This document shows positions 24,676-38,973 of a stretch of 64,000 nucleotides of DNA, one piece after another (the first letter of the stretch is position 1; each line of letters starts with the position of its first letter). Origin of the DNA: Chromatiaceae bacterium (GTDB lineage Bacteria > Pseudomonadota > Gammaproteobacteria > Chromatiales > Chromatiaceae); assembly GCA_027078745.1 (NCBI GenBank), contig JALWWO010000004.1, positions 1-64,000 of the forward strand. The letters are read 5' to 3'. A program made the translations under genes and the position numbers. The notes under the pieces were generated by a model, which searched no databases, had not been told where the DNA came from, and saw only the letters and a list, made by a program, of their open reading frames with translations.

Positions 24676-26484
24676 CTACCAGCCTAGATGGGTTGCCAGG
24701 GCAGAAGTTCGATGCACTCGACGTTTCACCCCCTGAAGAAAACAGGCTATTCCTCCCTGGATGCGCACCTCTCTGCGAGCGCGGGTGATCGCTGTGTAGA
24801 GGAGTTCCCGAGTTACCAAAGCATTGGGTTCTCGGGGTAACACCAAGAGCACTGCTTCAAATTCTGAACCCTGACTCTTGTGCACCGTGAGGGCCAGGGC
24901 GGTTTCATAAGGGGGCAGCTGACGCAGGGAGAAGCTGCGCACCTGGCCCGACACATTCTGAAAATAGGCGCGCAGCTGCCCCTGCTCGTCCCGCCAGAAC
25001 AAGCCGATGTCCCCGTTGAACAGCCCGAGTTCATAATCGTTGACCAGGATCATGATGGGTTTTCCCGGGTATTCCTCTCCGGCTTCGATCCAACCCTCTG
25101 CCCGCAGCCGCGCTTCCAGCAACTGATTGATGGCTACTGCGCCCAGGGGTCCCTGACGCAGGGCTGTCAGTACCCGATAGCGGCCAAAGGCTTGCAGGGC
25201 ACTCACCGGGTCCGGTTGACGGAGATAATGGCGGTAGTGATCCAGTGCCCATCGGATACAGCTAACCTCCAAGCCCTCCGGCGGCGCAGATATCCAACCT
25301 AAGGATTCCGATTCGGATTGCAGCCGCGCCAGCGCTTCTTCTGCCTGTCCGCAGTTGATCTCAGCGGCCAAGGCACCGATGCCGCTGTCCGGCCGGAATC
25401 GGTAGCTGATGCGCAGCAGCGCCACCGCATCCGCACAGGGAGGGGCTTCCGGTTTCGCCTTCAGGGCATCTTTTGGCACTGCATTCAGGGCTTCCAAATG
25501 CTTGACCTGCGACGGGCTGTACGCGATGGGGGCCCCGTGTCCCGTGATATCTCCCAACACGTTGCCCGCCTCCACCGAGGCCAATTGTTCCCGATCCCCC
25601 AGCAGGATCAGGCGCGCTTCCAGGGGCAAGGCCTCCAACAGCTGCGCCATGAGGGGTAGATCGACCATGGAAGCCTCATCCACCACCAGGCAATCCAGGG
25701 GCAAGGGATTGTTCCGGTGATGTTCGTAATGAGGCCTGAAGCCCTTGCCCAACAGCCGGTGAAGGGTGCTCGCCTCCGTGGGCACGGCATCCCGCAGTGT
25801 CGGCGGCAGGGCGTCCCGACCCTGCTGGATGGACTCGGTGAGCCGCGCCGCCGCCTTGCCGGTGGGCGCGGCCAATGCGATGCGCAGGCTGGGATGCTGA
25901 TCCCGCAACAAGGCCAACACCTTCACCACCGTGGTGGTCTTGCCCGTGCCCGGCCCGCCGGAGAGCACGGAAAAACGGCGGCTCACCGCCAGGGCGGCGG
26001 CCACCCGTTGCCAATCAAGGGTGGGAGCCGAGGGGAAGAGTTGTTCGAGGCCCCGCCGCAGCTTGGCCGCATCGAAGGCGGCGAAGGGCGGGGCCAAACG
26101 GGCTAAGAGGGATTGAGCCACCTGTTGTTCGTAACGCCAATAGGCCCCGAGATAGAGCCTGCGCCCGTCCAGCACCAGCGGGGCCAGGTGCCCGGGCCTG
26201 CCCACCCAAGCGCATCGCTTCAGCTCCGCCAGCCAATCTTGCAGTTGGGGGCCTCGGGGAACCTCAGCGCTTTCTTCCTCGGAACCGAAGAGGGGGCGAT
26301 CGATGTAGCAGCTCAGATCCACGCACACATCCCCCCGCAGATTGCACTGACTCACGAGGGCTGCACTCCAACCCAACAGGGAATCCAGCGCTACGCCGCT
26401 GCCCTGGGTGACGAAACGGGCGAAGTGATAGCTGAGGGGGGAAAGTCTGCCTTCTGCAAGCAGGGCAGACAGGGCCTTGCTCAT
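24676..26484 (-). CDS. recD: Exodeoxyribonuclease V, alpha subunit (RecD)
   Basis: 602 residues. Superfamily 1B helicase with Walker A GGPGTGKTTT, DEAx-type motif II VVDEASMVDLPLMAQLLEAL, GDREQLASVEAGNVLGDI, and C-terminal motif LTVHKSQGSEFEAVLLVLP. It is the fast 5'-3' helicase of RecBCD in double-strand break repair and foreign DNA degradation. Its start overlaps the recB stop by 4 nt (ATGA), showing translational coupling. Confidence 0.96.
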   Translation of the reverse strand: MSKALSALLAEGRLSPLSYHFARFVTQGSGVALDSLLGWSAALVSQCNLRGDVCVDLSCYIDRPLFGSEEESAEVPRGPQLQDWLAELKRCAWVGRPGHLAPLVLDGRRLYLGAYWRYEQQVAQSLLARLAPPFAAFDAAKLRRGLEQLFPSAPTLDWQRVAAALAVSRRFSVLSGGPGTGKTTTVVKVLALLRDQHPSLRIALAAPTGKAAARLTESIQQGRDALPPTLRDAVPTEASTLHRLLGKGFRPHYEHHRNNPLPLDCLVVDEASMVDLPLMAQLLEALPLEARLILLGDREQLASVEAGNVLGDITGHGAPIAYSPSQVKHLEALNAVPKDALKAKPEAPPCADAVALLRISYRFRPDSGIGALAAEINCGQAEEALARLQSESESLGWISAPPEGLEVSCIRWALDHYRHYLRQPDPVSALQAFGRYRVLTALRQGPLGAVAINQLLEARLRAEGWIEAGEEYPGKPIMILVNDYELGLFNGDIGLFWRDEQGQLRAYFQNVSGQVRSFSLRQLPPYETALALTVHKSQGSEFEAVLLVLPREPNALVTRELLYTAITRARREVRIQGGIACFLQGVKRRVHRTSALATHLGW

Positions 26485-29400
26485 GAGGGTGGGAAAATTT
26501 GCTGATCCAAGGCTTGAATCCTGCTGAAGTCGGGGCGGTAAAAGTATACCCCGAAGCGGGGACCCGTTTCAGGGCGCATGGCCCGCAGGAACAAATAATA
26601 GATGCCGCCGAAGTGGCGTTCGTAGACATAGTCTTTCCAGCGCTGCCGAAGATAACGGTGCAGCGCCAGGCTGTAGAGCAGATATTGGAGATCGTAGCGC
26701 CGGATGAACACGGTTTCTTGCAGTTTCTCCGGCCCGTAATCCTCGAACCGGTCGCCCAGAAAGTTGCTCTTGTAGTCGGCGATATAGAAACGATCTTCCC
26801 AAGCGAAAACCAGATCGATGACGCCGTTGACCAAGCCCCGGAAGCTTTCCAAGGCGAGGGGGGGCAAAGAGCGTCCGGCCGCCGCCTGCAACAGATCGTT
26901 GAGCGCTTCGGGATGCAGGCGCTGGGTGGAAAAGTCGAACGCCAGTTCGCTCAGCCGGTGCTGTCCATCGATCCGGGCCAGGGAAAGCCCCGAATCATTC
27001 AGGGGGGTGGCGACGACCCGGGCCAACAGATCGGCGGCATCCTGTCCGTAACGCTCGTGATCCAGGCCGAACCTCAGGGCGATACGTTCGCTTTCCCGCA
27101 AGACCTGGGGCTCGATGGGCTGTTGAAAGTCCAGCCGCTCCAGCAGCAGATGCAGATAGGAACCCACCTGGGTGCCGGCGGGGAAGCGCAAGCCCACATC
27201 CGAGGGTTTTTCCTCCCTTCGGGGGGCGATAGGTCCCTGATGCACGTCCCGAGCCAGCGCGGAAAAACTGGAGACACGCCAATCCCGACCGATCTTTCTG
27301 TGGAAGGTTCGCACGCAGAGTTCGGCACGCTCAGAAGAAGCAGGAGAAAGCTGGACGGATGCGACCTTCGGCAAGGGAAGTACCTGAATCGTCCCTGCCG
27401 ATTTTTGCACGAGCCGGGCCAGATCGCCCCCCAGGTGTTCAGCGCCTCGGAAGGCATCCGGCCCTTCGGTCTTCAGAGATTCCCCGGACTGATGGGGGTG
27501 GAGGAGATAGGCCAGGGCGGATTTGGTCGCCTTGTGGATGTTCCCCCAGACGAGATAAAGGGCGGATTCCGCGCGGGTCAGGGCTACATAGAGCAAGCGC
27601 AGGTCTTCCGCCAGGCGTTCCCGCTCCGCAAGCCATCGATGTTGTTGGAAATCCGGCGAACCCGCATCCAGATAGGCTTGCTGATCTCGGTGGAAGCGGA
27701 GCAAGGTCTTGGTATTCGTTTCCTTGCAATCCCAGAGATCCGGCAGAAAGACCACCGGATATTCCAAGCCTTTGCTGCTGTGAATGGTGAAGATCTGGAC
27801 CAGATCTTCATCGCTCTCCAGGCGCAATTCCATCTCGTCCCGCCGCGCCGTGCCGCGCCGCGCCGCTTCTCGGCAGCGGTGGCGGTACCAGCTGAGCAGG
27901 GCATCCAACCCCCCCTGCTCCTTGGAAGCCTGGTGCAGCACTTCCCCCAGGTGGAGCAGATTGGTCAAGCGCCGTTCCGCGGCAGGTTCTCGGGCCAGGG
28001 CTTCCGCAATGCCCAGCACCCGAATCATGTGCTGGAACATGGGCATGAACCCCCGCTGCCGCCAGAGATCTTGCAAGTGCAGCAGATGATCCACCCAACG
28101 ATGCCAGGCGGTTTCCTCCTGGAGCAAGGATTCGATTTCGGCCAGGGTCTTCTGCAACAGGGGAGAGGCCAGCGCCAGGCGGGCGCTGTTGGGATCCTTG
28201 GGCGTTACCACCGCTTGCAGCAGGGCATCTAAGGCTTTGGCCTCTGAGGTACTGAAGATCTGGGCCGTGCTCCGGGAAACCGCTGTGATGCCGAGTTCCC
28301 CCAAACTTCGGCGCAGGTCATCCCCTTCCCGATGGGCGCGCACTAGCACAGCGATGTCCTTGGGTTGTAGGGGCCTGTCCCCGATGAACGCCTCTTTCCG
28401 CCGGCCTGCTTCGATGAGCTGGGCGATCTCCTGGGCGATTGCCGTGTGAATGCGCGGAACCGCTCGATTCTTCGGGCGGTTGCCTTCTTCCAACAGGCTC
28501 CAGAGGGTTAAGGCCGGTTGCGGTTTTCCCCTGCGAATCAGGGGGCGATGGCTTCGAACTGCGGGTTTCGCCGGCAGGAAGGGGATATCTTCCTGAAAGA
28601 CAAAGGGATCCGGCCGGTTCTGAAACAAGGTGTTGATGGCCTGAATGACTTCCGGTGTGGAGCGCCAATTAGTATCCAAGGTATACAGCCCCGCTGGACC
28701 CACATCCCGCTTGGCACTGATATAAGTGAAGATGTCCCCGCCGCGGAAGCTATAGATCGCCTGCTTGGGATCCCCGATCATGACGAGCTGGCAACCCGCC
28801 TGCCCCCGATAAAGCCGCCGGAAGATCTCGTATTGGATTGCATCCGTGTCCTGGAATTCATCGATCATGGCCACGGGGAATTGCTGTCGCACCCGATCCC
28901 CCAGCTGCTTGCCCTGGGCGCCCGCTAGCGCATCCCGCAGATTGCAGAGCAGATCGTTATAGGAAAGCCGCTGTTCCCGAACCTTGTGCTTTTTCATCTC
29001 CCCCTGCACGAAAGCCGCAGCGTCGCGCAGGGCGGCGACCTTGAGATCCCGTTGCAGGGTTTCCACATCCTGATAAAACTGCCCGCATTCTTGAAAAAAG
29101 GGATCGGCCAGCTTTGGATCCGGTTTCTTCTGCTGTTCTTCTAGCTTCTGAGCAGTCAGGCATTCAAATGCTTCGGGAAGAAGCAGCTCCGGTGCTTGGA
29201 ACCAATGGGACAGTTGATCCAGCGCCTTGCTCAGCCGACCCTTTTGATAAATCTTCTTCCGCCAAAGGCTCGGGGAAGTTTCCAGCAGGTCCTGAAGCCG
29301 ATCCCCTTCCCGCTGCCAATGATTCGCCAGTTGGTTCAGACGCTGCTGCAAGTGCGCATAGCGCTTCCACAGGGCATCCAGGGAATCCGAAACTTCGGGC

Positions 29401-30008
29401 AACAGTCGTTTGGGCTGAATGCCCCAGAGGTGGACGAGCAGGGATTGAAACTGGGGTAGGTCTCCCAGCGCTGTTTGAACAAAGCGCGCTTCCGACGGGG
29501 TGCGGGGGTAGATCTGCCGCCGCCACCAGTCCTGTAGAAATCGATGCCGGTATTCTTCATCTCGGTTTTCGATTTCCGTCTGAAAGGGCTGGGCGCTGTA
29601 AAAGGCCTGCTCGCTGAGGATGCGTTGGCAAAAGCCGTGGATGGTGAAGATCCTCGCCTCGTCCATGGCCCGCACGGCGAAGGCCAGGCGGTCGCGCGCT
29701 TCTTCCTGGGCCTGTTCGTCCTGGGGCAGCAGGGCGCGGAGGGAATCATCTGGTTCCCCCTCCCCTCGGAGCACGGATAGGGCTTGGGAAAGACGGCTCC
29801 GGATACGCCCCTGCAATTCATCGGTGGCCGCTTTGGTGAAGGTGACCACCAGGATTTCCCGCACCTGCCGACCGATGAGGATCTGGCGCAGATAAAGATT
29901 GGCGAGGGTGTAGGTCTTGCCCGTGCCCGCGCTGGATTCGATGAGCTGCAACCCCGCTTCGGGAAAACTGCTCAGGGCAGCCTGGTCGAGAATGCGGGGG
30001 TGGTTCAT
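26481..30008 (-). CDS. recB: Exodeoxyribonuclease V, beta subunit (RecB)
   Basis: 1175 residues. UvrD-like 3'-5' helicase (Walker A ESSAGTGKTYTLANLYLR at the N-terminus; motif II MIDEFQDTD; TIHSSKGLEYPVVFLPDL) plus C-terminal nuclease domain with GVIDLVFAWEDRFYIADYKS, which holds the Asp and Lys of the RecB nuclease active site. It needs RecC; recC is normally directly upstream but here the upstream neighbour is the NuoB-like gene, 37 nt away. recC must lie elsewhere in the genome. Confidence 0.96.
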   Translation of the reverse strand: MNHPRILDQAALSSFPEAGLQLIESSAGTGKTYTLANLYLRQILIGRQVREILVVTFTKAATDELQGRIRSRLSQALSVLRGEGEPDDSLRALLPQDEQAQEEARDRLAFAVRAMDEARIFTIHGFCQRILSEQAFYSAQPFQTEIENRDEEYRHRFLQDWWRRQIYPRTPSEARFVQTALGDLPQFQSLLVHLWGIQPKRLLPEVSDSLDALWKRYAHLQQRLNQLANHWQREGDRLQDLLETSPSLWRKKIYQKGRLSKALDQLSHWFQAPELLLPEAFECLTAQKLEEQQKKPDPKLADPFFQECGQFYQDVETLQRDLKVAALRDAAAFVQGEMKKHKVREQRLSYNDLLCNLRDALAGAQGKQLGDRVRQQFPVAMIDEFQDTDAIQYEIFRRLYRGQAGCQLVMIGDPKQAIYSFRGGDIFTYISAKRDVGPAGLYTLDTNWRSTPEVIQAINTLFQNRPDPFVFQEDIPFLPAKPAVRSHRPLIRRGKPQPALTLWSLLEEGNRPKNRAVPRIHTAIAQEIAQLIEAGRRKEAFIGDRPLQPKDIAVLVRAHREGDDLRRSLGELGITAVSRSTAQIFSTSEAKALDALLQAVVTPKDPNSARLALASPLLQKTLAEIESLLQEETAWHRWVDHLLHLQDLWRQRGFMPMFQHMIRVLGIAEALAREPAAERRLTNLLHLGEVLHQASKEQGGLDALLSWYRHRCREAARRGTARRDEMELRLESDEDLVQIFTIHSSKGLEYPVVFLPDLWDCKETNTKTLLRFHRDQQAYLDAGSPDFQQHRWLAERERLAEDLRLLYVALTRAESALYLVWGNIHKATKSALAYLLHPHQSGESLKTEGPDAFRGAEHLGGDLARLVQKSAGTIQVLPLPKVASVQLSPASSERAELCVRTFHRKIGRDWRVSSFSALARDVHQGPIAPRREEKPSDVGLRFPAGTQVGSYLHLLLERLDFQQPIEPQVLRESERIALRFGLDHERYGQDAADLLARVVATPLNDSGLSLARIDGQHRLSELAFDFSTQRLHPEALNDLLQAAAGRSLPPLALESFRGLVNGVIDLVFAWEDRFYIADYKSNFLGDRFEDYGPEKLQETVFIRRYDLQYLLYSLALHRYLRQRWKDYVYERHFGGIYYLFLRAMRPETGPRFGVYFYRPDFSRIQALDQQIFPPS

Positions 30009-30045
30009 GGGATCATTGGGGGAACCTTGAACGCATTCGGTTCGC

Positions 30046-30771
30046 TTATTTTAGCAGGGTGGGTTGCTCCCGAAGCTCCAGATTCAGGGTCAGGGCTTCC
30101 AAGGGCTTCTGATGCCGCGCCAATCGAGCGGTGTGTTCGCCTTGGGTCTCTTTCCCTAGAAGGTTGTAATGCTTGGCTTCCGCGATCACATCCACCGGCG
30201 TTTGCCAGGTCTCTCCGAACAGGCGCTGTTGATTGCCCAGATAATGATCGTAGCGGAGGAAATAATCCCGCCAGGCGTTGGCCGTTCCCCGCTCGATGTT
30301 CCGGCGGAGATCCCGCATCCCCGCGATGACCGCTTCCGGTCGAGGCATGCAGCCGGCGATGTACAGATCCACCGGCAGATAATCGTTGAGCTTCTTCGCC
30401 GTGGCGTAGCTCTGCCAGTACATGCCCCCGTTCACTGTGCAGGAACAGATGCCGATGACATATTTGGGAGCGGGCATCTGCTCGTAGGTAAGAATCACCC
30501 GCTTGAGGGTTTTGACGGACACATAGCCCGTGACCAGCAGAATATCCGCTTGGCGGGGGCTGACCATGGGCTGGATGCCCAGGCGCTCCATGTCGAAGCG
30601 GGAAGTCATGGCGGGGGGCAACTCGATGGCCCCGCAGCCCGTGCAATAGTGCAGTATGAACAGGGAACGGGATTGGCAGAAGCGCAGGAACTCATCGAAC
30701 ACCCGCCCCAAGGGATTGGTGGATTTGTGCGGACTTGGGGCTTGGCGAACAGGAATATCTCGAATGCCCAT
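30046..30771 (-). CDS. NuoB/MbhJ-like iron-sulfur subunit of an Mrp-linked complex
   Basis: 241 residues. All four cysteines expected for the N2-type [4Fe-4S] cluster are present: C43 and C46 in CTGC, C111 in CTVNGGMYW and C141 in AGCMPRPEAV. The CXXC spacing (rather than the CC of complex I NuoB) is like the small subunit of group 4 [NiFe] hydrogenases. A basic C-terminal extension follows residue 155. It is the last gene of a ten-gene operon, 18 nt after the NuoH-like gene. In known complexes this subunit sits against a NuoD/hydrogenase large subunit, which is not encoded here. Confidence 0.9.
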   Translation of the reverse strand: MGIRDIPVRQAPSPHKSTNPLGRVFDEFLRFCQSRSLFILHYCTGCGAIELPPAMTSRFDMERLGIQPMVSPRQADILLVTGYVSVKTLKRVILTYEQMPAPKYVIGICSCTVNGGMYWQSYATAKKLNDYLPVDLYIAGCMPRPEAVIAGMRDLRRNIERGTANAWRDYFLRYDHYLGNQQRLFGETWQTPVDVIAEAKHYNLLGKETQGEHTARLARHQKPLEALTLNLELREQPTLLK

Positions 30772-30789
30772 GGAGCGCCTCCGGTGGGA

Positions 30790-31689
30790 TCAGTGTAGGA
30801 CAAAGGCCAGACCCAAAAGAGCGAGGAACGTGGGCCATTTCCAGAAGAATCGCACCAAATCTTCGGTGCGGAAGCGGGGAAAGAGATAGGCGATGGCCAT
30901 GGGAATGGAGACCACCGCGAAAATCTTCACCAAAAAGGTGAGCCAGTTTTCCCCGCCCCCCAGGAACAGGCTGGTGTAGAGCACGCCGGCAGTGTAGAGC
31001 TGGAAGCACTGCATGATGAACAGGCCCCCCAGAAACTTCCCCCCCATCTCCACCATGGGGCCGGTGGCGATCTCCGCCGGCGCCACATAGATTTCAAAGG
31101 GCTGCTTGCCCAACATGCCCTGCAAAGCGAGGAGCCCCGCGAGGGCCAGCAGAGGGTTCTGCACGAGGCCCCAACTGGCGATGCCGTCCGATTGCTGGGC
31201 AGCGATGATCTCCACCAGATTGGTGGACTGGGCGGCATAGGCGGTGCCGAACACCACCAGGATAAAGGGCACATCATAGGCCAGCATGGCGGTGAGGGCC
31301 CGAGAGATCCCGATGGACCCGTTGGGATTGGCGCACTGACCCACCCCCAGGGCCAAGCCCAGGGAAGGAATCATAGTCATATAGGCCAGGGTGATGAGGC
31401 CCCCTTGCTGGGCGATGCCGTTCATGCCGGGCACGGGCAACAGGGTTTCCGCCGCCACATAGCCGCCGATGGCCATGACGATGCCGATTTCATGGATCAG
31501 CCCGTGGGAACTCTGGGTCTCCTTGGCATGGAGCTTCAGGATGTCATAGAGGGGTTGGAAGAACGGAGGCCCGATGCGCCGTTGCAGCTTTGCCCCGATC
31601 TTGCGCAGGGTCAACACCATGCCCATGCCGATGAAAAAGGCCATTAGGGGCATGAGAATCAATTCCAAGAGCAGATGCGTCCAGTGCAT
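30790..31689 (-). CDS. NuoH/MbhM-like membrane subunit
   Basis: 299 residues, about eight transmembrane helices. The loop RRIGPPFFQPLYDILKL (37-53) matches the conserved first cytoplasmic loop of NuoH-family proteins in its Mbh/hydrogenase-4-like form. Downstream regions (ALGVGQCANPNGSIGISRAL, PFEIYVAPAEIATGPMVEMG) also fit. It links the antiporter-like subunits to the NuoB-like protein and normally helps form the quinone or ion-coupling path. The ATG at 31689 was preferred to an upstream in-frame start that lies inside the preceding gene. Confidence 0.88.
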   Translation of the reverse strand: MHWTHLLLELILMPLMAFFIGMGMVLTLRKIGAKLQRRIGPPFFQPLYDILKLHAKETQSSHGLIHEIGIVMAIGGYVAAETLLPVPGMNGIAQQGGLITLAYMTMIPSLGLALGVGQCANPNGSIGISRALTAMLAYDVPFILVVFGTAYAAQSTNLVEIIAAQQSDGIASWGLVQNPLLALAGLLALQGMLGKQPFEIYVAPAEIATGPMVEMGGKFLGGLFIMQCFQLYTAGVLYTSLFLGGGENWLTFLVKIFAVVSIPMAIAYLFPRFRTEDLVRFFWKWPTFLALLGLAFVLH

Positions 31690-31699
31690 GGCATGCCTC

Positions 31700-33565
31700 C
31701 TAAAAGACCCAGACCGCAATGCCGAGCACAGCAGCCAACGACCACAGCAGGGGTTGCGCGATGCCGTAGAATCCATTGGTGAAATGGGCCAGGAAATCCA
31801 CGATAGAACCGAGCGCCCGTTCCAACCACTGGAAGGAACCCCGATACCAGGGGCCGATGAGATGCATCAGTCCCGCATAGAAATGATCTGAATACTGATA
31901 GCGGTTCTCCGCATAGAGGAAATGCCCGCCCGCATAATTATCCAGCTGATGGACGCGCTTGCTCGGGCCGCCGAGACCGAAGAACACCAGGGCACCGATG
32001 CCAAAGCCCGCGAGCAACACGCTGACAATCCAAATCATGTTGAAGCCCCCGTGGGCATCGTAGACGCCGCCCAGATGGTAGTTCACCACCGGCAGACCGA
32101 GTTGGGCTTGAACGGCGGCAACCCAGCTGAGCGTTGGGCCTGGGAAATAGCCGGCCAGAAAGATCAGCAGGGAAAGGCTCAGCATGGGAATCAACATGCT
32201 CAGGGGGGCTTCCTGCACGGATTCATGTTCCAAGCGAAGCTGCCCCAAAAAAATATTATGGATCAGCTTGTAGACGGACAGAATAGTGCCCAAGGTGCCG
32301 ATGATCGCACCCACGAACAGCAGGGGCATTCCCTCGAAGAGCAGGGCCCGATAGACCAGCAGCTTGGAGACAAAGCCGGCCATGGGGGGCAGACCGGCCA
32401 AGCTGATGATGCCGAAGAGCAGGGTGAGAAAGGTCAGGGGCATCCGGGCCACCAACCCCCCCAACCGGTTGAGATCCGTAGTGCCCGTGCGATAGAGGAC
32501 GGCGAAGACCGCCATGAGCAAGGCCACCTGGGTGATGGCATGGTTGAAGATGTGGAGCAATCCCCCAGCGCTCCCTTCAGCCGTGCCCACCAGAACGCCC
32601 AACACCATATAGCCCCCCTGCCCGATGCCGTGCCAAGCCAGCAGATAGCGAGCATCCTGCTGCTGCAAGGCTGTATAGGTGGGGAAAATGATGGTGAACA
32701 CCGCGATCCAAGCCAGCAGATCTCGGCCGTTCAAAAAGGTATAGGGAATCTCCATCTGCACCAGCCGCGCGAGACCCACCATGCCCACGAAGAATACGAG
32801 CATGGCATAGAGCCCCATGCGGGCGGAAACCGCGCTGAAGAAGGCGGAGCCGGGGCCCGGGGTTTCCGCATAAGCAGGGGCCTGCCAGAGGTGAAAGGGG
32901 AGCAGGCCCATCTTGATTCCGAAACCACTGCCCAGCAGGGCGAGGAGCACCCAGAGTTGCCCATCGCTCATCTGGGGCAAGCTTTCCCGGATGGGCTGGA
33001 ATTCCAGGGAACCCGCTTGGGCATAGAGCAGGGCCATGGCCCCGAGAATGGCCATGCCGCCGGTGAAAGCGTAGCCGAGATAGCGCAGGGCTGCCCGAGC
33101 GGCGATCCCGCCCCGCAGGGCCATGAGGAAAAAGGTCGCCCAATTCAGCAGCTCCCAGCCCAGAAACAGGCTGAGAAAATCTTCCGCACCCACCAGGAGC
33201 ACCATGCTGAACACATTGGCCGCCAGGGCCGTGTGCAACACGCCCGCGCTGTGCCCGGCTCGTTCATAGTCCCGCATCCAAACGCCGGAGCCATAGCCGG
33301 TGCTGAGAAAGCCCGCGCCGAGGGTGATCAGGGCGAAGAACCAAGATAGGGCATCGTAGCGCCAGTGCATGGGCTGATCCAGCACCACCAGGGACCAGCT
33401 GAGGGAAATGGGCTCGCCGAACAAGGCGTTCGTCTGGAGGAGGGCGACAAACTGCGCTGCGTAGCCCAGTAAGAGCAAGGGGGCTGCCCAGCGAGTGCGC
33501 CCGAAGAGCAGGGCGCACAATAGAGTTGCACCGGAGAGCAGAAAGAGCAGGTCCAAGGCATTCAT
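31700..33565 (-). CDS. NuoL-like proton-conducting antiporter subunit
   Basis: 621 residues, about 15-16 transmembrane helices. Key ion-path residues are present: E138 in LFLGWELLNW (TM5) and K218 in FGIKMGLLPFHLW (TM7), plus HGIGQGGYMVLG and LLHIFNHAITQVALLM. The last 150 residues extend beyond a plain MnhD with extra helices and a polar segment LDNYAGGHFLYAENRYQYS. It starts 4 nt inside the end of the MnhD-like gene. One of two antiporter-like subunits in the operon. Confidence 0.9.
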   Translation of the reverse strand: MNALDLLFLLSGATLLCALLFGRTRWAAPLLLLGYAAQFVALLQTNALFGEPISLSWSLVVLDQPMHWRYDALSWFFALITLGAGFLSTGYGSGVWMRDYERAGHSAGVLHTALAANVFSMVLLVGAEDFLSLFLGWELLNWATFFLMALRGGIAARAALRYLGYAFTGGMAILGAMALLYAQAGSLEFQPIRESLPQMSDGQLWVLLALLGSGFGIKMGLLPFHLWQAPAYAETPGPGSAFFSAVSARMGLYAMLVFFVGMVGLARLVQMEIPYTFLNGRDLLAWIAVFTIIFPTYTALQQQDARYLLAWHGIGQGGYMVLGVLVGTAEGSAGGLLHIFNHAITQVALLMAVFAVLYRTGTTDLNRLGGLVARMPLTFLTLLFGIISLAGLPPMAGFVSKLLVYRALLFEGMPLLFVGAIIGTLGTILSVYKLIHNIFLGQLRLEHESVQEAPLSMLIPMLSLSLLIFLAGYFPGPTLSWVAAVQAQLGLPVVNYHLGGVYDAHGGFNMIWIVSVLLAGFGIGALVFFGLGGPSKRVHQLDNYAGGHFLYAENRYQYSDHFYAGLMHLIGPWYRGSFQWLERALGSIVDFLAHFTNGFYGIAQPLLWSLAAVLGIAVWVF

Positions 33566-35031
33566 GGTTGATCCTTCCGATGGGCGGCCGCTTGGGGGAA
33601 AACCTGGGTGATGTAAAACGACCGATCCGCCGCCTGCTGGGTGATGGCCCGCAATCGATCCGCCACCGGATTGATCCGCAGGGTCACCGCCAGCAGCGCT
33701 GCCCCCAGCAACAGGGAGGGCAGGAATTCCCAGAAGGAGCGGAAACCGGCGGGCGCATTCTCCACCTTTTCATAGAGTTGAAGGGCGAACCGGAAGAGAT
33801 AATGGGCTTCCACCGCAGTGACCAAGAGAATGGCTCCCAGCCCCGTGAAGGCGAGGGCAGAACCCTCCTGAGCCAGGCCCGCGAGCACCAGAATCTTCGT
33901 CCAGAACCCCGGCAGGGGCGGCACCCCGATGAGAGAGAGTGCGAAGAGGACGAACAGGGCCGCTGCCAGCGGGGTGCGCTGAGCGCTGCCGGTCAAGGCT
34001 TGCAGGGAACCCGACCAGCGATGGGCCAGGCCGAAGAGGGCGGATTTCACCAACAGATGGTGCAGGGCGACGGCGATGCCCGCGAGCACGCCCCAGCTGC
34101 CGGAGAGGGAAAAGGCGATGAAGACCAGGCCCAATTGACCGATGGAGGAAAAGGCGATCATGCGGGGAAAATCCTGGGCGCGCCAGGCGGAGAACTCCCC
34201 GAAGAAGATGGTGAGGATGCCCAGGAACAACAGGATCTGGGGCGCAGCCGTGTCGCCATAGACCAGCACGAGCAAGCGCAGCAAGATCAGGACCGCCAAC
34301 TTGGAGATCAAGCCCGCCAGCAGGGCGGAGATGCGGGCCGGTGCGCTCGCGTAGACCTCCGGCACCCAATAGTTCAGGGGGAAGAGCTCTGCCTTGACCC
34401 CGAAGCCGATGACCATGAGCCCGAAGGCGAGCAAACCCGCCGGGCCTTGCAGCGGCTCGGGATCGATGCCCAGTTGTGCCAGGTTCAAGGTGCCGGTCTG
34501 TAAGTACAACAGCGCGATGCCCGCCAGGGCGAGGACCGAGCCGAAGGCGCTCACCAGCAGATAGCGCACTGTGGCAACGAGGGCTGGCCCGGTGCCCGAC
34601 AGGCTGACCAAACCGAAGGAAGCCACCGCCGCCAGCTCATAGAACACATAGAGATTGAACAGATCCCCCGACAGGGCCAAGCCCGTGGCCGAAGCGGCCA
34701 ACAACAGCATGAGGGCATCCTGACGGGCCTGTTGCGGATTCCCGCCCCGCCAGTCCCAGAACAACAGGAAGAAGAGGGCTACCGCATTGGCGAAGAGCAG
34801 GGCGAGGCGATCCCCGTAGAAGACGATGCCCAGGGGCGGCGCGAAATTTCCGATAGCCAGCACCAGGGGTTGCGCCGGCGGATCGAGGCAGCAGGGCAGC
34901 AACAAAACCAAACTGGTGGTGAGCACGATGGGCCCCAGGGCCCGCGCGATCAGGGCGGACATTCGGGCCAAGGGCATCACCAAGAAGGCGGCCAGCAGGG
35001 GCAGGACCACGGGGAGAATGAGGGGTAGCAT
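33562..35031 (-). CDS. MnhD/NuoN-like antiporter subunit
   Basis: 489 residues, about 14 transmembrane helices, with E132 (LFNLYVFYELAAVASFG) and K213 (IGFGVKAELFPLNYWVPEVY) at the conserved ion-path positions. This corresponds to MrpD/MnhD and to MbhH of membrane-bound hydrogenases. It starts exactly where the MnhC-like gene ends (no gap) and overlaps the next gene by 4 nt. Confidence 0.9.
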   Translation of the reverse strand: MLPLILPVVLPLLAAFLVMPLARMSALIARALGPIVLTTSLVLLLPCCLDPPAQPLVLAIGNFAPPLGIVFYGDRLALLFANAVALFFLLFWDWRGGNPQQARQDALMLLLAASATGLALSGDLFNLYVFYELAAVASFGLVSLSGTGPALVATVRYLLVSAFGSVLALAGIALLYLQTGTLNLAQLGIDPEPLQGPAGLLAFGLMVIGFGVKAELFPLNYWVPEVYASAPARISALLAGLISKLAVLILLRLLVLVYGDTAAPQILLFLGILTIFFGEFSAWRAQDFPRMIAFSSIGQLGLVFIAFSLSGSWGVLAGIAVALHHLLVKSALFGLAHRWSGSLQALTGSAQRTPLAAALFVLFALSLIGVPPLPGFWTKILVLAGLAQEGSALAFTGLGAILLVTAVEAHYLFRFALQLYEKVENAPAGFRSFWEFLPSLLLGAALLAVTLRINPVADRLRAITQQAADRSFYITQVFPQAAAHRKDQP

Positions 35032-35490
35032 TCAAGGTTCCTGGGGACGGGGCGGCACTGGCGAAAGGGGCCGTTCTCCAGCGGGTTTTTCCGCGCTTTT
35101 CGGCGGAGCAATGCCTTGCTTGCGGGCGAGATCCCCTTCCAGATGGGCTTTCAGGGCGACCAGATCCAAGGTGCCATAGCGGCGATAGATGCGCACGGCG
35201 GCGGCCACCGCCAGGGCTTGCACCCCTACCCCGATGACGATGGCCGTGAGCACCAGGGCTTGGGGGATTGGATCCACCATAGGCATATCTTGGGGACCGA
35301 AGCCCAGGATGGGCGGTTGTGCGCCCCCCCGATAACCGCTCAGGATCAACAGGAGATTGACCCCGGCTTCCGCTAAGGCCAGGGCTAAGATCAGGCGGAA
35401 CAGATGGGTAGTTGTAACCAACCCAAAGGTACCGAGGAGCAGCAAACCCAGGGCACCAATGTATAAAATGCTGACAAAATCCAACGCCAT
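35032..35490 (-). CDS. MnhC/NuoK-like subunit
   Basis: 152 residues, three transmembrane helices (about 5-27, 33-52 and 78-101). LALALAEAGVNLLLILSGY and DPIPQALVLTAIVIGVGVQAL are the standard MnhC/NuoK segments, including the membrane Glu in ALAEAGVNL. A polar, proline-rich tail of about 45 residues extends beyond the usual MnhC length. It overlaps the MbhE-MnhB stop by 1 nt. Confidence 0.9.
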   Translation of the reverse strand: MALDFVSILYIGALGLLLLGTFGLVTTTHLFRLILALALAEAGVNLLLILSGYRGGAQPPILGFGPQDMPMVDPIPQALVLTAIVIGVGVQALAVAAAVRIYRRYGTLDLVALKAHLEGDLARKQGIAPPKSAEKPAGERPLSPVPPRPQEP

Positions 35491-36176
35491 CAGGATTCCC
35501 GCCCCTCCGCTTCCATCAGACTGGTCATGAGCCCCGCCAGCTCCGCACCCACCTTCAACCCCACCGCCATGGAGAGCAGGGGCAGGGTACCGGCGGAGAA
35601 CAGATGACCCAGCACCCCCTTGCCCAGCAGGGGTTCCAAAAAGGCATCTCGGGCGAACAAAGCCCAGAGCCCAATGCCGATGAAGGCAGCCCCTGCCAAT
35701 CCTTCGACGAAGCTGAGCAAGCCGTGATCCAACCCTCGGCGGGGCCGCGCGAGCACCGGCACGAAAAAGGCAGCGGCCAGGATCACCCCCCCTTGAAAAC
35801 CGCCCCCGGGGGTCAGATGGCCATGCAGGATCACATAGAGCCCCACCACCAGCAGCAGGGGGAACAACAGATCCGAACCCGCCCGCAGGATGAAGCCCCC
35901 TTCGGGATCCGAGACCACCAGTTGACGGCGGCCCAGCACCAGGCCGACGGCGGTGGCGGCGGCGAACAAAATGGAAAGTTCGCCCAGGGTATCCATGCCC
36001 CGATAGGCGAGCAGCACCGCCGTTACCAGATTTGCGGCACCCACCGTTTCACCGCCCTCTTCTAAGATGGCTGCGCCCGCGACCAGGGGGGGTGCCCCCA
36101 GGGGCAGGCGGAAGAAGAGCACGAACAAGAAGAAGCCCAGCCCCCCGATGAAGAGCACAGCGGCGAGATTACGCAT
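35490..36176 (-). CDS. MbhE-MnhB type subunit (fused)
   Basis: 228 residues. The first half (LVTAVLLAYRGMDTLGELSI) matches MbhE/the end of MrpA; the second half (RAGSDLLFPLLLVVGLYVIL, then HGHLTPGGGFQGGVILAAAF) is a clear MnhB domain. In Mbh and many Mrp operons these are separate MbhE and MbhF genes or part of MrpA. The start at 36176 overlaps the MbhD-like stop by 8 nt; earlier in-frame starts would lie deep in that gene. Confidence 0.88.
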   Translation of the reverse strand: MRNLAAVLFIGGLGFFLFVLFFRLPLGAPPLVAGAAILEEGGETVGAANLVTAVLLAYRGMDTLGELSILFAAATAVGLVLGRRQLVVSDPEGGFILRAGSDLLFPLLLVVGLYVILHGHLTPGGGFQGGVILAAAFFVPVLARPRRGLDHGLLSFVEGLAGAAFIGIGLWALFARDAFLEPLLGKGVLGHLFSAGTLPLLSMAVGLKVGAELAGLMTSLMEAEGRES

Positions 36177-36474
36177 CTTCCCGCTCCCGTCGATCCGTGG
36201 GCACCAGGGCATGGGCTTCTCCCCGATCTCCTTCGATCCGCCAGAGGCCCAGCTTGCGCAAACCCAGGGCGAGAACAACCGTGGACAGACCCGCCCCCAC
36301 AGCGGCTTCCGTCAGAGCCACATCTGGCGCTCGCAACAGCACGAACAGGACAGAGACCCCCAGGGAGACCACGGAGGCGGCCACCACCGCTCCCATCAGG
36401 GATTGCAGACACAAGACCAGCACACCGGCGCTGAGCACCAGAATCACCAAGATCAGGGCGACGGTTTCAAGCAT
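36169..36474 (-). CDS. MbhD-like subunit (DUF4040)
   Basis: 101 residues, three transmembrane helices. The sequence LQSLMGAVVAASVVSLGVSV, followed by LRAPDVALTEAAVGAGL, is the DUF4040/MbhD signature, equivalent to part of the MrpA C-terminal region and NuoJ. Overlaps its neighbours by 8 nt on each side, as expected of a tightly coupled operon. Confidence 0.88.
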   Translation of the reverse strand: MLETVALILVILVLSAGVLVLCLQSLMGAVVAASVVSLGVSVLFVLLRAPDVALTEAAVGAGLSTVVLALGLRKLGLWRIEGDRGEAHALVPTDRREREDA

Positions 36475-36787
36475 GCTCTTTCTCCAAATCCATTTTCCGG
36501 TCTTCCACCTGCCAGGGTCGAACGCCGGCGAGATAGAGGGCGCGGGCGATGGTCGACGAGCCGATGGGATTGGTGAGCAGGATGAACCCTGCGATGCAGA
36601 GGAGCTTGGCCCACCAAGCTGGGTACAACAAGCCCACTCCTAGGAGAAAGCAGAAGGCTCCCAGGGTGACCGCCTTGGTGCCCGCCTGAATCCGGTTGTA
36701 CACATCGGGCATCCGCAGCAGTCCCAGCGCGCCCAAGAAGGAAAAGACAGCCCCCAGGAGCAAAAAGCCGTCTGCGATCCACCTCAT
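36467..36787 (-). CDS. MnhG-like subunit
   Basis: 106 residues, three transmembrane helices. FSFLGALGLLRMPDVYNRIQ, then AGTKAVTLGAFCFLLGVGL, and ILLTNPIGSSTIARALYLAG are the MnhG/MrpG/MbhC hallmarks. The ATG at 36787 overlaps the MnhF stop by 4 nt. Confidence 0.9.
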   Translation of the reverse strand: MRWIADGFLLLGAVFSFLGALGLLRMPDVYNRIQAGTKAVTLGAFCFLLGVGLLYPAWWAKLLCIAGFILLTNPIGSSTIARALYLAGVRPWQVEDRKMDLEKEHA

Positions 36788-37050
36788 GCCCGATACCCCT
36801 CGATGGTGCGAGCCAGGGCGATGACGGCCACGAAGGCGAGCACCCCATAGACCAGGGCCACATCCAGATACAGGGGGTTGGCGAACCAAGCGGCGAGCCC
36901 AGCGATGCCCGCAGTGGTGATGACGGACAGGGTATCCGAAGCCACGATGCGATCGGGGACCTGAGGTCCCAAGATCAGCCGAACGAGTCCCAGCAAGAGC
37001 GCCAGCCCCATCAGGAGAAAGGCGAGGAGTTCCAAGGGGTTCAAACTCAT
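36784..37050 (-). CDS. MnhF-like subunit
   Basis: 88 residues, three transmembrane helices. LGPQVPDRIVASDTLSVITT is the MnhF/MrpF/MbhB signature. The start at 37050 overlaps the MnhE stop by 4 nt (ATGA); the open frame extends further upstream but only over MnhE and shows no membrane or family character there. Confidence 0.9.
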   Translation of the reverse strand: MSLNPLELLAFLLMGLALLLGLVRLILGPQVPDRIVASDTLSVITTAGIAGLAAWFANPLYLDVALVYGVLAFVAVIALARTIEGYRA

Positions 37051-37571
37051 TTCAGGAATCCGAGCAAGGGTTCTTCCAGGGTGCGGACGATGGCTTGAGT
37101 GGCTGCGGCCAGATCCTTGCCCGGCGTGCAGTCCACCCAATGGATGAGGAAGCGATCTCCCTGCACATCCACCGTCAAAGTGCCCGGCGTCAGGGTGATG
37201 CTGTTGGCCAGGAGCAGGCGCCCCAGCGGGGATTGTAGCCGCGTTTGCACCGCTACCACCGCCGGATTCAGGGGCAGGGCGGGAGAGAGCACCCGCCGGG
37301 CCATGTCCAGATTGGCACGCACTAAGGCCAGGCCGAAGGCACCGAGGTAGCGCAGCAGGTGCAGGGGAGCGCTCGGGGAGAAGCGAATACCACCCAGAAT
37401 CCGGAGCTTCTGGCCGGATACGAGCACGACCAGTCCCCCAGCGATGCCGGCCGCCAGCCCTTCTTCCCAGTTCCAGCTGCCTGCTAAGAGCAACCACAGC
37501 AGGACGCTGAGGCCGAAGGCGAGCAGAGCTTGTCCCAGACGGGCCTTTCTTCCTATAGCGGGTTCTTCCAT
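37047..37571 (-). CDS. MnhE-like subunit
   Basis: 174 residues. Two N-terminal hydrophobic helices and a soluble C-terminal domain with LANSITLTPGTLTVDVQGD and FLIHWVDCTPG, the MnhE/MrpE/MbhA signatures. First gene of the operon. The ATG at 37571 is preferred to a GTG at 37604 because the predicted transcript begins near 37598. Confidence 0.88.
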   Translation of the reverse strand: MEEPAIGRKARLGQALLAFGLSVLLWLLLAGSWNWEEGLAAGIAGGLVVLVSGQKLRILGGIRFSPSAPLHLLRYLGAFGLALVRANLDMARRVLSPALPLNPAVVAVQTRLQSPLGRLLLANSITLTPGTLTVDVQGDRFLIHWVDCTPGKDLAAATQAIVRTLEEPLLGFLK

Positions 37572-37604
37572 CGGCGGGGTTCTGCGTAGTGAAATCGGAG
37601 GCAC

Positions 37605-37632
37605 ACTATATACGGAACCCTCCGGATGTCCA
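37605..37632 (-). promoter_or_regulatory. Predicted sigma-70 promoter of the Mrp/Mbh-like operon
   Basis: Reverse strand: -35 TGGACA (37632-37627) and -10 TATAGT (37610-37605), 16-nt spacing, each five of six to consensus. The start point would be near 37598, just upstream of mnhE. Confidence 0.55.
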
Positions 37633-37713
37633 TGACATTTTCATGACGCCAGCCCCCGAGCGGGACGAATGCGAAGAAACCCGATACCATGTTTTTTTTC
37701 AAAGGAGTATCGG

Positions 37714-38973
37714 ATGTTTGCAAAGCACTTATCGATCGCCGACTACGATCCCGCCCTGTGGGAGGCCATCCAAAACGAAGCGCGCCGCCAGGAAGCGCAT
37801 ATCGAGCTGATCGCCTCGGAGAATTACACCAGCCCCCGTGTGCTACAAGCGCAGGGTTCTGTGCTCACTAACAAATATGCGGAGGGCTATCCGGGCAAAC
37901 GCTATTACGGAGGGTGCGAGTATGTGGATGTCGCGGAACAGCTCGCCATCGACCGCGCGAAAGCCCTGTTCGGTGCGGACTATGCCAATGTGCAGCCTCA
38001 TTCCGGTTCCCAAGCCAATGCAGCCGTGTACATGGCGATCTGCGCGCCCGGGGACTGCGTGTTAGGCATGCGCTTGGCCCATGGGGGGCATCTGACCCAC
38101 GGCGCTAAGCCCAATTTCTCCGGCAAGCTCTATCGTTCGGTGCAGTACGGGCTGGATCCCAAGACCGGAGAAATCGATTATGAGGAGGTGGCGCGGCTCG
38201 CGCGGGAACATCGGCCCAAGCTGATCGTGGCGGGCTTCTCCGCCTATTCTCGGGTGGTGGACTGGGAACGATTCCGCACCATCGCCGACGAAGTGGGGGC
38301 CTTTCTGCTGGTAGATATGGCCCACGTGGCCGGCTTAGTGGCCGCTGGACTCTACCCCAGCCCCGTGCAGATCGCAGATGTGACCACCACCACGACCCAC
38401 AAGACCTTGCGGGGGCCGCGTGGGGGGCTGATCCTGGCCAAGTCTAACCCGGACCTGGAAAAGAAACTCAATTCCCTAGTATTCCCCGGCATTCAAGGCG
38501 GACCCCTCATGCATGTGATCGCCGCCAAGGCGGTAGCGCTGAAAGAGGCCATGGAACCAGCATTCCGAGATTATCAACGCCAGGTGCTGGAAAACGCCCG
38601 CGCCATGGCGGCGGTGTTTCTGGAACAGGGCTTCGAGGTAGTCTCCGGCGGCACAGATGACCATCTCTTCCTGGTGAGCTTCATCGACCAGGGATTGACG
38701 GGCAAGGAGGTAGATGCTTGGCTCGGGGCGGCGAACATCACGGTTAACAAAAATGCCGTGCCCAACGATCCCCAGTCGCCCTTTGTGACCAGCGGCATTC
38801 GGGTGGGCACGCCGGCCATCACCACCCGAGGCTTTGGCACCGAAGAGGCCCGCACCCTGGCCGGCTGGATGTGCGAAATCATTCAGCGCCGAGGCGATCC
38901 CGCTTGTATCGAACGGGTGCGCCAACAGGTGCTCGATCTGTGCGCCCGATTCCCCGTCTACGAACCACGATGA
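37714..38973 (+). CDS. glyA: Serine hydroxymethyltransferase
   Basis: 419-residue PLP enzyme interconverting serine and glycine with transfer of a one-carbon unit to tetrahydrofolate. The PLP-binding Lys lies in [30 protein letters not shown] and [15 protein letters not shown] are family signatures. AAAGGAG precedes the ATG at 37714. First gene of glyA-nrdR-ribD-hydrolase, all on the plus strand with small gaps or overlaps. Confidence 0.97.

Follow-up and report, generated by a model that had tools for sequence, protein, structure and literature searches.

Genes of a bacterial MBS/MBX complex with a probable NAD(H) module lie at two separate loci in a Chromatiaceae genome

Can a set of genes for the membrane arm of a complex I-like enzyme, with NuoB and NuoH and no catalytic subunit, function by itself, or is the other half of the enzyme encoded elsewhere? 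This question is raised by an operon in the 64,000-nucleotide stretch of Chromatiaceae DNA that was analysed here as a whole and is called the window (contig C4 of the genome G000). The ORF reading places ten packed genes on one strand, overlapping or only a few bases apart, which encode MnhE, F, G, MbhD, MbhE-MnhB, MnhC, MnhD and NuoL-, NuoH- and NuoB-like products (Table 1). All ten products pass the Pfam cut-off, with the exception of the short MbhE part of the MbhE-MnhB fusion. The original prediction, which described such a one-strand membrane arm with NuoB and NuoH, flanked by recB and glyA, agrees with these readings, and no NuoC, NuoD or NuoI homologue is found in the operon or between the operon and its flanks. 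The genes of NuoH, MbhE-MnhB, MnhG and MnhF probably use internal start codons downstream of the longest-ORF starts. The Glu and Lys residues of the ion path were also said to be kept in both antiporter subunits; this holds for MnhD and fails for the NuoL-like subunit, which keeps E138, K218 and K401 and carries Gln (Q346) at the HAxxK lysine, as do about half of 69 relatives.

Table 1. Features of the window (contig C4) and of the associated loci on contigs C17 and C9; L004 and L005 are locus coordinates.
Feature	Position	Strand	Details
recB, flank	26481-30008		
Breakpoint side	30009..30045		NuoB then recB (relatives: NuoB then NuoC)
Whole operon, ten genes	30046-37604	(-)	
NuoB/MbsJ-like, predicted proximal [4Fe-4S] cluster	30046..30771	(-)	PF01058; motif CTGCGAIE, CSC, GCMPRPE
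NuoH/MbsM-like membrane anchor	30790..31776	(-)	PF00146; likely start near 31689
NuoL-like second antiporter subunit (MbsH'-like), C-terminal extension	31700..33565	(-)	PF00361
MnhD/MbsH-like antiporter subunit	33562..35031	(-)	PF00361
MnhC/NuoK-like subunit	35032..35490	(-)	PF00420
MbhE-MnhB-like fusion	35490..36278	(-)	PF04039 above cut-off, PF20501 weak; likely start near 36176
MbhD-like subunit (DUF4040)	36169..36474	(-)	PF13244
MnhG-like subunit	36467..36889	(-)	PF03334; likely start near 36790
MnhF-like subunit	36784..37059	(-)	PF04066; within longer ORF 36784-37497
MnhE-like subunit, first gene of the operon	37047..37604	(-)	PF01899
glyA, flank	37669-38973		
Multihaem c-type cytochrome and multihaem/cytochrome b membrane protein (C17)	L004:2006-5490		upstream of the relocated NuoC
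NuoC-, NuoD- and NuoI-type genes	C17:38574-42139 (L004:5575-9140)		NuoC-like 194 aa; NuoD-like 380 aa; NuoI::GltD/NfnL-like flavoprotein fusion 611 aa
Rubrerythrin-like gene (C17)	L004:9130-9642		
Operon continuation NuoC-NuoD-NuoI::GltD-Rbr	C17:38574-42641 (L004:5575-9642)		
ParA/MinD-like ATPase gene (C9)	L005:4513-5460		AAA_31; between NuoF and NuoG

The genome is a 24-contig draft of 2.18 Mb that is 97% complete, and statements about the whole of it come from family or protein searches. A family search returns two NuoD genes, one on contig C9 and one on contig C17, the latter unlinked to the window; there are likewise two genes each for NuoB and for NuoH, one on C9 and one in the window. 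On C17, the genes follow one another as multihaem cytochrome, multihaem and cytochrome b protein, NuoC-like, NuoD-like, NuoI::GltD and rubrerythrin-like. Judged by sequence, the NuoC-, NuoD- and NuoI-type genes provide exactly the K, L and N homologues missing from the window. The expectation of a separately encoded electron-accepting module is thereby borne out, and the unlinked NuoD homologue for which a genome search had been proposed exists; the claim of "no catalytic subunit" stands for the window and falls for the genome. Loss of the catalytic module in this lineage is ruled out, since C17 has the remaining subunits.

Complex I has an operon of its own on contig C9, which encodes NuoA, B, C, D, E, F, G and H and includes an I-like gene. 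As the NuoB and NuoH of the window are both homologous to complex I subunits, they might be read as spare or alternative parts of ordinary complex I, and the original prediction had named such membership as a finding that would count against it. The C9 operon, however, has its own NuoB, NuoD and NuoH, and the window copies are only 34% (NuoB) and 29% (NuoH) identical to those on C9 and are closest to MBS, so that this reading is barely credible.

Relatives show how the two loci belong together. The NuoI::GltD gene occurs in 13 other genomes among 274 of the class, in 12 as a full-length copy, and every one of these 12 also has a close NuoB orthologue (44-76% identity) on the same contig. The 12 loci share the order MnhE-F-G-MbhD-MbhE/MnhB-MnhC-MnhD-NuoL-NuoH-NuoB-NuoC-NuoD-NuoI::GltD, usually with a rubrerythrin-like gene next; the exceptions are L065, in which MnhG and MbhD are swapped, and L064, whose contig begins within MnhB. 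The 13 subunit genes form a single block in relatives from many bacterial phyla, and the same order is seen in Sedimenticola, Candidatus Thiodiazotropha, Halochromatium and Tropicimonas (Alphaproteobacteria being among the taxa covered), as well as in Spirochaetes, Halanaerobium, Bacteroidetes, Cloacimonadota, Thermotogae and others. Among the longer loci of the family, 16 of 17 agree in order as far as their contigs extend. The operon is contiguous in the relatives except one (G326), and in G000 it is divided between C4 and C17 exactly at the NuoB | NuoC junction.

Two concatenated trees, one of NuoB, NuoH, NuoL and MnhD and the other of NuoC, NuoD and NuoI::GltD, both group G000 with L165 and L122 (support 1.0 and 0.93). 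As G000 takes the same position in the trees of both halves, the two most likely descended together from a single cluster. The original prediction had named beforehand, as a finding that would refute it, a NuoC/NuoD/NuoI set next to the operon in close relatives, which was taken to mean recent loss; the set is adjacent there, although in G000 the catalytic module was moved, not lost. The other proposal, a minimal or new redox-linked pump, found no support once the C17 module was known. In favour of a minimal ion pump or antiporter of the Mrp-NuoH-NuoB type, working without NuoC, NuoD and NuoI, it can be said that the window contains no further subunit and that the operon is bounded by recB and glyA; yet intact orthologues of NuoC, NuoD and NuoI::GltD are present in G000 at the same tree position, and the membrane half occurs alone in no relative that was read. 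We therefore regard such a pump as very improbable.

The split itself could be an assembly error, with the operon contiguous in the real genome, given that G000 is a draft and that G326 is the only other relative read in which the operon is divided. Against this, both breakpoints lie well inside contigs (at least 64 kb for that of the window, 114 kb for C17) and adjoin unrelated genes, namely recB on one side and the multihaem cytochrome and cytochrome b genes on the other, and the assembly would have to contain two separate misjoins, both falling exactly on the NuoB/NuoC boundary. An artefact is accordingly improbable. In G326, which belongs to the same family, C61 (L166) carries NuoB-NuoC-NuoD-NuoI::GltD-Rbr, preceded by a DAHP synthase gene, and C74 (L205) carries the genes from MnhE to NuoH, so that the junction is NuoH | NuoB, unlike that of G000; L055, and not G000, is the closest neighbour of G326 in the trees. 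Given the different junction and the separate tree position, the two splits, read from the assemblies of two draft genomes, look independent. G326 also has the multihaem cytochrome and cytochrome b genes (88% and 86% identity), with no NuoC adjoining. An empty site for the C17 half was sought in G326 and no clean one was found, the downstream C17 genes being without a match there. Around the intact clusters, no conserved functional neighbour was seen beyond the rubrerythrin-like gene, and the flanking genes tested vary by genome. The split locus is the unusual feature; the complex itself belongs to a known kind, MBS/MBX.

The assignment to this kind is firm. In a sequence search, the membrane-bound sulfane reductase MBS of the archaeon Pyrococcus furiosus (6u8y) is the best PDB match for all six subunits compared. 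NuoD scores 396 bits against MBS, 280 against complex I and 135 against MBH. NuoB matches MbsJ (6u8y_J) with 213 bits and E 3e-62, the next E being 2.5e-33 and the runners-up a photosynthetic (NDH-1 type) complex I with 118 bits and MBH with 104, and NuoH matches MbsM (6u8y_M) with 178 bits and E 3e-51, the next E being 1e-13 and the scores of MBH and NDH-1 54 and 52 bits. The NuoL-like subunit aligns with 6u8y_X over 581 residues (173 bits, E 1e-49) and MnhD with 6u8y_H (195 bits, E 2.5e-56), while MbsN is the best PDB match of the NuoI part outside the flavin domain. With NuoB, NuoD, NuoH and both antiporter subunits all matching MBS better, these scores place the complex with MBS/MBX rather than MBH, and of the Mbh/Mbs-type arm that had been predicted only the MBS side stands. 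The Mrp-type membrane arm typical of MBS/MBX is present, with two antiporter subunits, MbhD, MbhE/MnhB, MnhC and MnhE-G, and so are all the J, K, L, M and N homologues, NuoB and NuoH in the window and NuoC, NuoD and the fused NuoI on C17.

The residues point the same way. Four features were given with the MBS structure, namely the absence of H38 and Y87, one Cys left of each [NiFe] pair, a short MbsJ CxxC and a three-Cys proximal cluster (PMC7684303), and all four are matched in the G000 sequences. In NuoD, RICVPDP and LDACPPEVDR align with MbsL RICVPEP and LDNCPPDIDR, which leaves one Cys per [NiFe] CxxC pair, HPGIEG replaces HPSTHG, and the Nqo4 quinone residues His38 and Tyr87 are absent at the aligned sites. 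The NuoB CTGC motif aligns with MbsJ without a gap; C46, C111 and C141 are invariant in 71 relatives, and C43, which corresponds to MbsJ C25, is Gly in 27 of the 71. A proximal cluster held by three cysteines would fit this pattern and agrees with the active MbsJ C25A mutant (PMC7684303). It counts against the MBS reading that the MbsL-type cysteines are not universal in relatives (C77 in 67 of 78, C374 in 60 of 78); these cysteines are dispensable in MBS (PMC7684303). Three other identities were rejected. A [NiFe] hydrogenase needs four large-subunit Cys ligands, and one per pair is left; complex I (NuoA-N) is excluded by the absence of NuoE, F and G from both loci and of the quinone-site His/Tyr; and a stand-alone Mrp antiporter is ruled out by the NuoB, NuoH and NuoD homologues.

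One part of the archaeal layout is not found. MBS, the characterised complex of this type, reduces sulfur with ferredoxin as donor, which counts against the NAD(H) reading given below, and its MbsN has no flavin domain. The G000 NuoI, in contrast, continues into an NfnL/GltD-like FAD domain, which matches NfnL-type flavoprotein chains at E 1e-70 to 1e-82. In the second nucleotide-binding fold of NfnL-type proteins, an Arg of the motif YRR contacts the NADPH phosphate. The corresponding stretch of the fusion is TALE, with E458 at the second Arg site, and among 80 relatives residue 458 of the GltD domain is Glu in 66 and Arg in 14. Since Glu stands in place of the NADPH-type Arg, we infer that the fusion of the window's type uses NADH and that Arg-type relatives use NADPH, which suggests NADH- and NADPH-type branches of bacterial MBX. 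Our literature search found no description of the NuoI::GltD fusion.

We put at roughly three in four the reading that the window and C17 genes encode one NAD(H)-linked MBS/MBX complex, its operon split, which links the movement of Na+/H+ to the passage of electrons between pyridine nucleotide and sulfane sulfur. Its subunit set, gene order, common descent of halves and MBS-type residues can be read from the sequences themselves. Both halves would assemble into one complex, although gene proximity, the usual argument for this, is lost in G000 and is counted against it. In such a complex, the FAD domain would exchange hydride with NAD(H), and electrons would pass along the Fe-S clusters of the fusion protein to NuoB, whose proximal [4Fe-4S] cluster would face NuoD. 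This cluster, with only three conserved cysteines, would trade electrons with sulfane sulfur in the form of polysulfide or persulfide. Through NuoH, conformational coupling would drive, or be driven by, H+/Na+ movement, for which MnhD, the NuoL-like subunit and MnhE-G/MbhD-E/MnhC would supply the path modules.

The substrate (sulfane sulfur), the ion and the direction of the complex are the parts that we infer. Substrate is not legible from sequence, and some MBX/Hyf-like clusters without [NiFe] ligands, in bacteria of non-sulfidic habitats, have been argued not to be sulfur reductases (PMC4053972), so that an NADH dehydrogenase with quinone or another acceptor, or a ferredoxin-linked enzyme, comes into consideration. 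The missing quinone-binding residues and the retained MBS-type motifs speak against it, several relatives are sulfur-oxidising lineages, and G000 has dsrA and soxB; we consider such an enzyme a minority option, though a real one. The DsrA (655 bits, cut-off 393) and SoxB (860 bits, cut-off 550) products make the host probably a sulfur oxidiser. The potentials of NADH and of polysulfide/sulfide are only some tens of millivolts apart, and with so small a gap the direction of the sulfane-sulfur enzyme may depend on conditions, reverse operation with NAD+ reduction driven by Na+/H+ influx included. Specifically, and more tentatively, the complex might run as the reverse of archaeal MBS: electrons from sulfide, thiol or persulfide would enter at the three-Cys cluster, and the fused flavin domain would reduce NAD+ at the expense of Na+/H+ influx via the Mrp arm. 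If true, this would be a quinone-free uphill electron transfer that yields NADH for CO2 fixation.

The closest known systems each share part of this design. P. furiosus MBS (6u8y, PMC7684303) is alike in its type of membrane arm, the loss of quinone and [NiFe] ligand residues and the CTGC motif, and differs in receiving ferredoxin electrons via MbsN (208 aa), where the G000 NuoI is fused to the GltD/NfnL-like FAD/pyridine-nucleotide domain; the G000 genes, moreover, lie at two loci in a host with sulfur-oxidation genes. Thermotoga maritima MBX, which has 13 subunits and is sulfur-induced (PMC9431562), is a bacterial MBS homologue with 13 genes as well, and two Thermotogae MAGs (L127, L130) share gene order and the NuoI::GltD fusion. 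In contrast to G000, the T. maritima operon is contiguous and its host a fermentative thermophile, and position 458 in L127 and L130 is Arg (NADPH-like) instead of Glu. The Riftia symbiont Endoriftia has a putative Mrp-Mbx complex co-expressed with the rTCA cycle, its function and direction being listed as unknown (PMC11636981). Endoriftia is a sulfur-oxidising member of the Gammaproteobacteria, and its complex, known from rTCA co-expression only, is of the same kind; in a Lamellibrachia endosymbiont of the window's own family the cluster is intact. Neither the Endoriftia co-expression nor the T. maritima sulfur induction settles the direction in G000.

An NAD(P)H dehydrogenase link was proposed earlier for the SudA/GltD-linked MBX operons of Desulfurococcaceae (PMC3035292), in which MBX-type genes likewise adjoin a gene for a GltD-like NADPH dehydrogenase subunit; these are archaeal, the gene is separate and not fused, and some lack antiporter genes. 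The complex I of C9 has homologous NuoB, C, D, H and I and antiporter-like subunits, and is set apart by NuoA, E, F and G, the tandem-Cys NuoB motif and the quinone His/Tyr in NuoD. MBH, a group 4 [NiFe] hydrogenase (6cfw), shares the Mrp-type membrane arm, but its [NiFe] site has four large-subunit Cys, where the G000 NuoD has one of each pair. Despite the spread over many phyla, our literature search found no biochemical study of a bacterial MBX with a built-in NAD(H) module. A supposed pump without a catalytic site thus gains a clear identity as a bacterial MBS/MBX complex with such a module, and since it occurs in sulfur oxidisers, tubeworm symbionts included, the direction in which the family works can be put to the test. 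That the membrane arm and the peripheral arm have come apart in two genomes of one family, each time at a different junction, also advises caution in inferring absence from operon context.

Some minor observations concern the neighbouring genes. In proteobacterial relatives the cluster usually ends with the rubrerythrin-like gene, which is mostly undetected in more distant phyla; its product possibly protects the complex from oxygen or peroxide. Upstream of the relocated NuoC on C17, the multihaem c-type cytochrome resembles the hydrazine-dehydrogenase/Multi-haem_cyto type, far under the NCBIfam cut-off, and is followed by the multihaem/cytochrome b membrane protein. Finally, the complex I operon on C9 includes, between NuoF and NuoG, the gene of a ParA/MinD-like ATPase.
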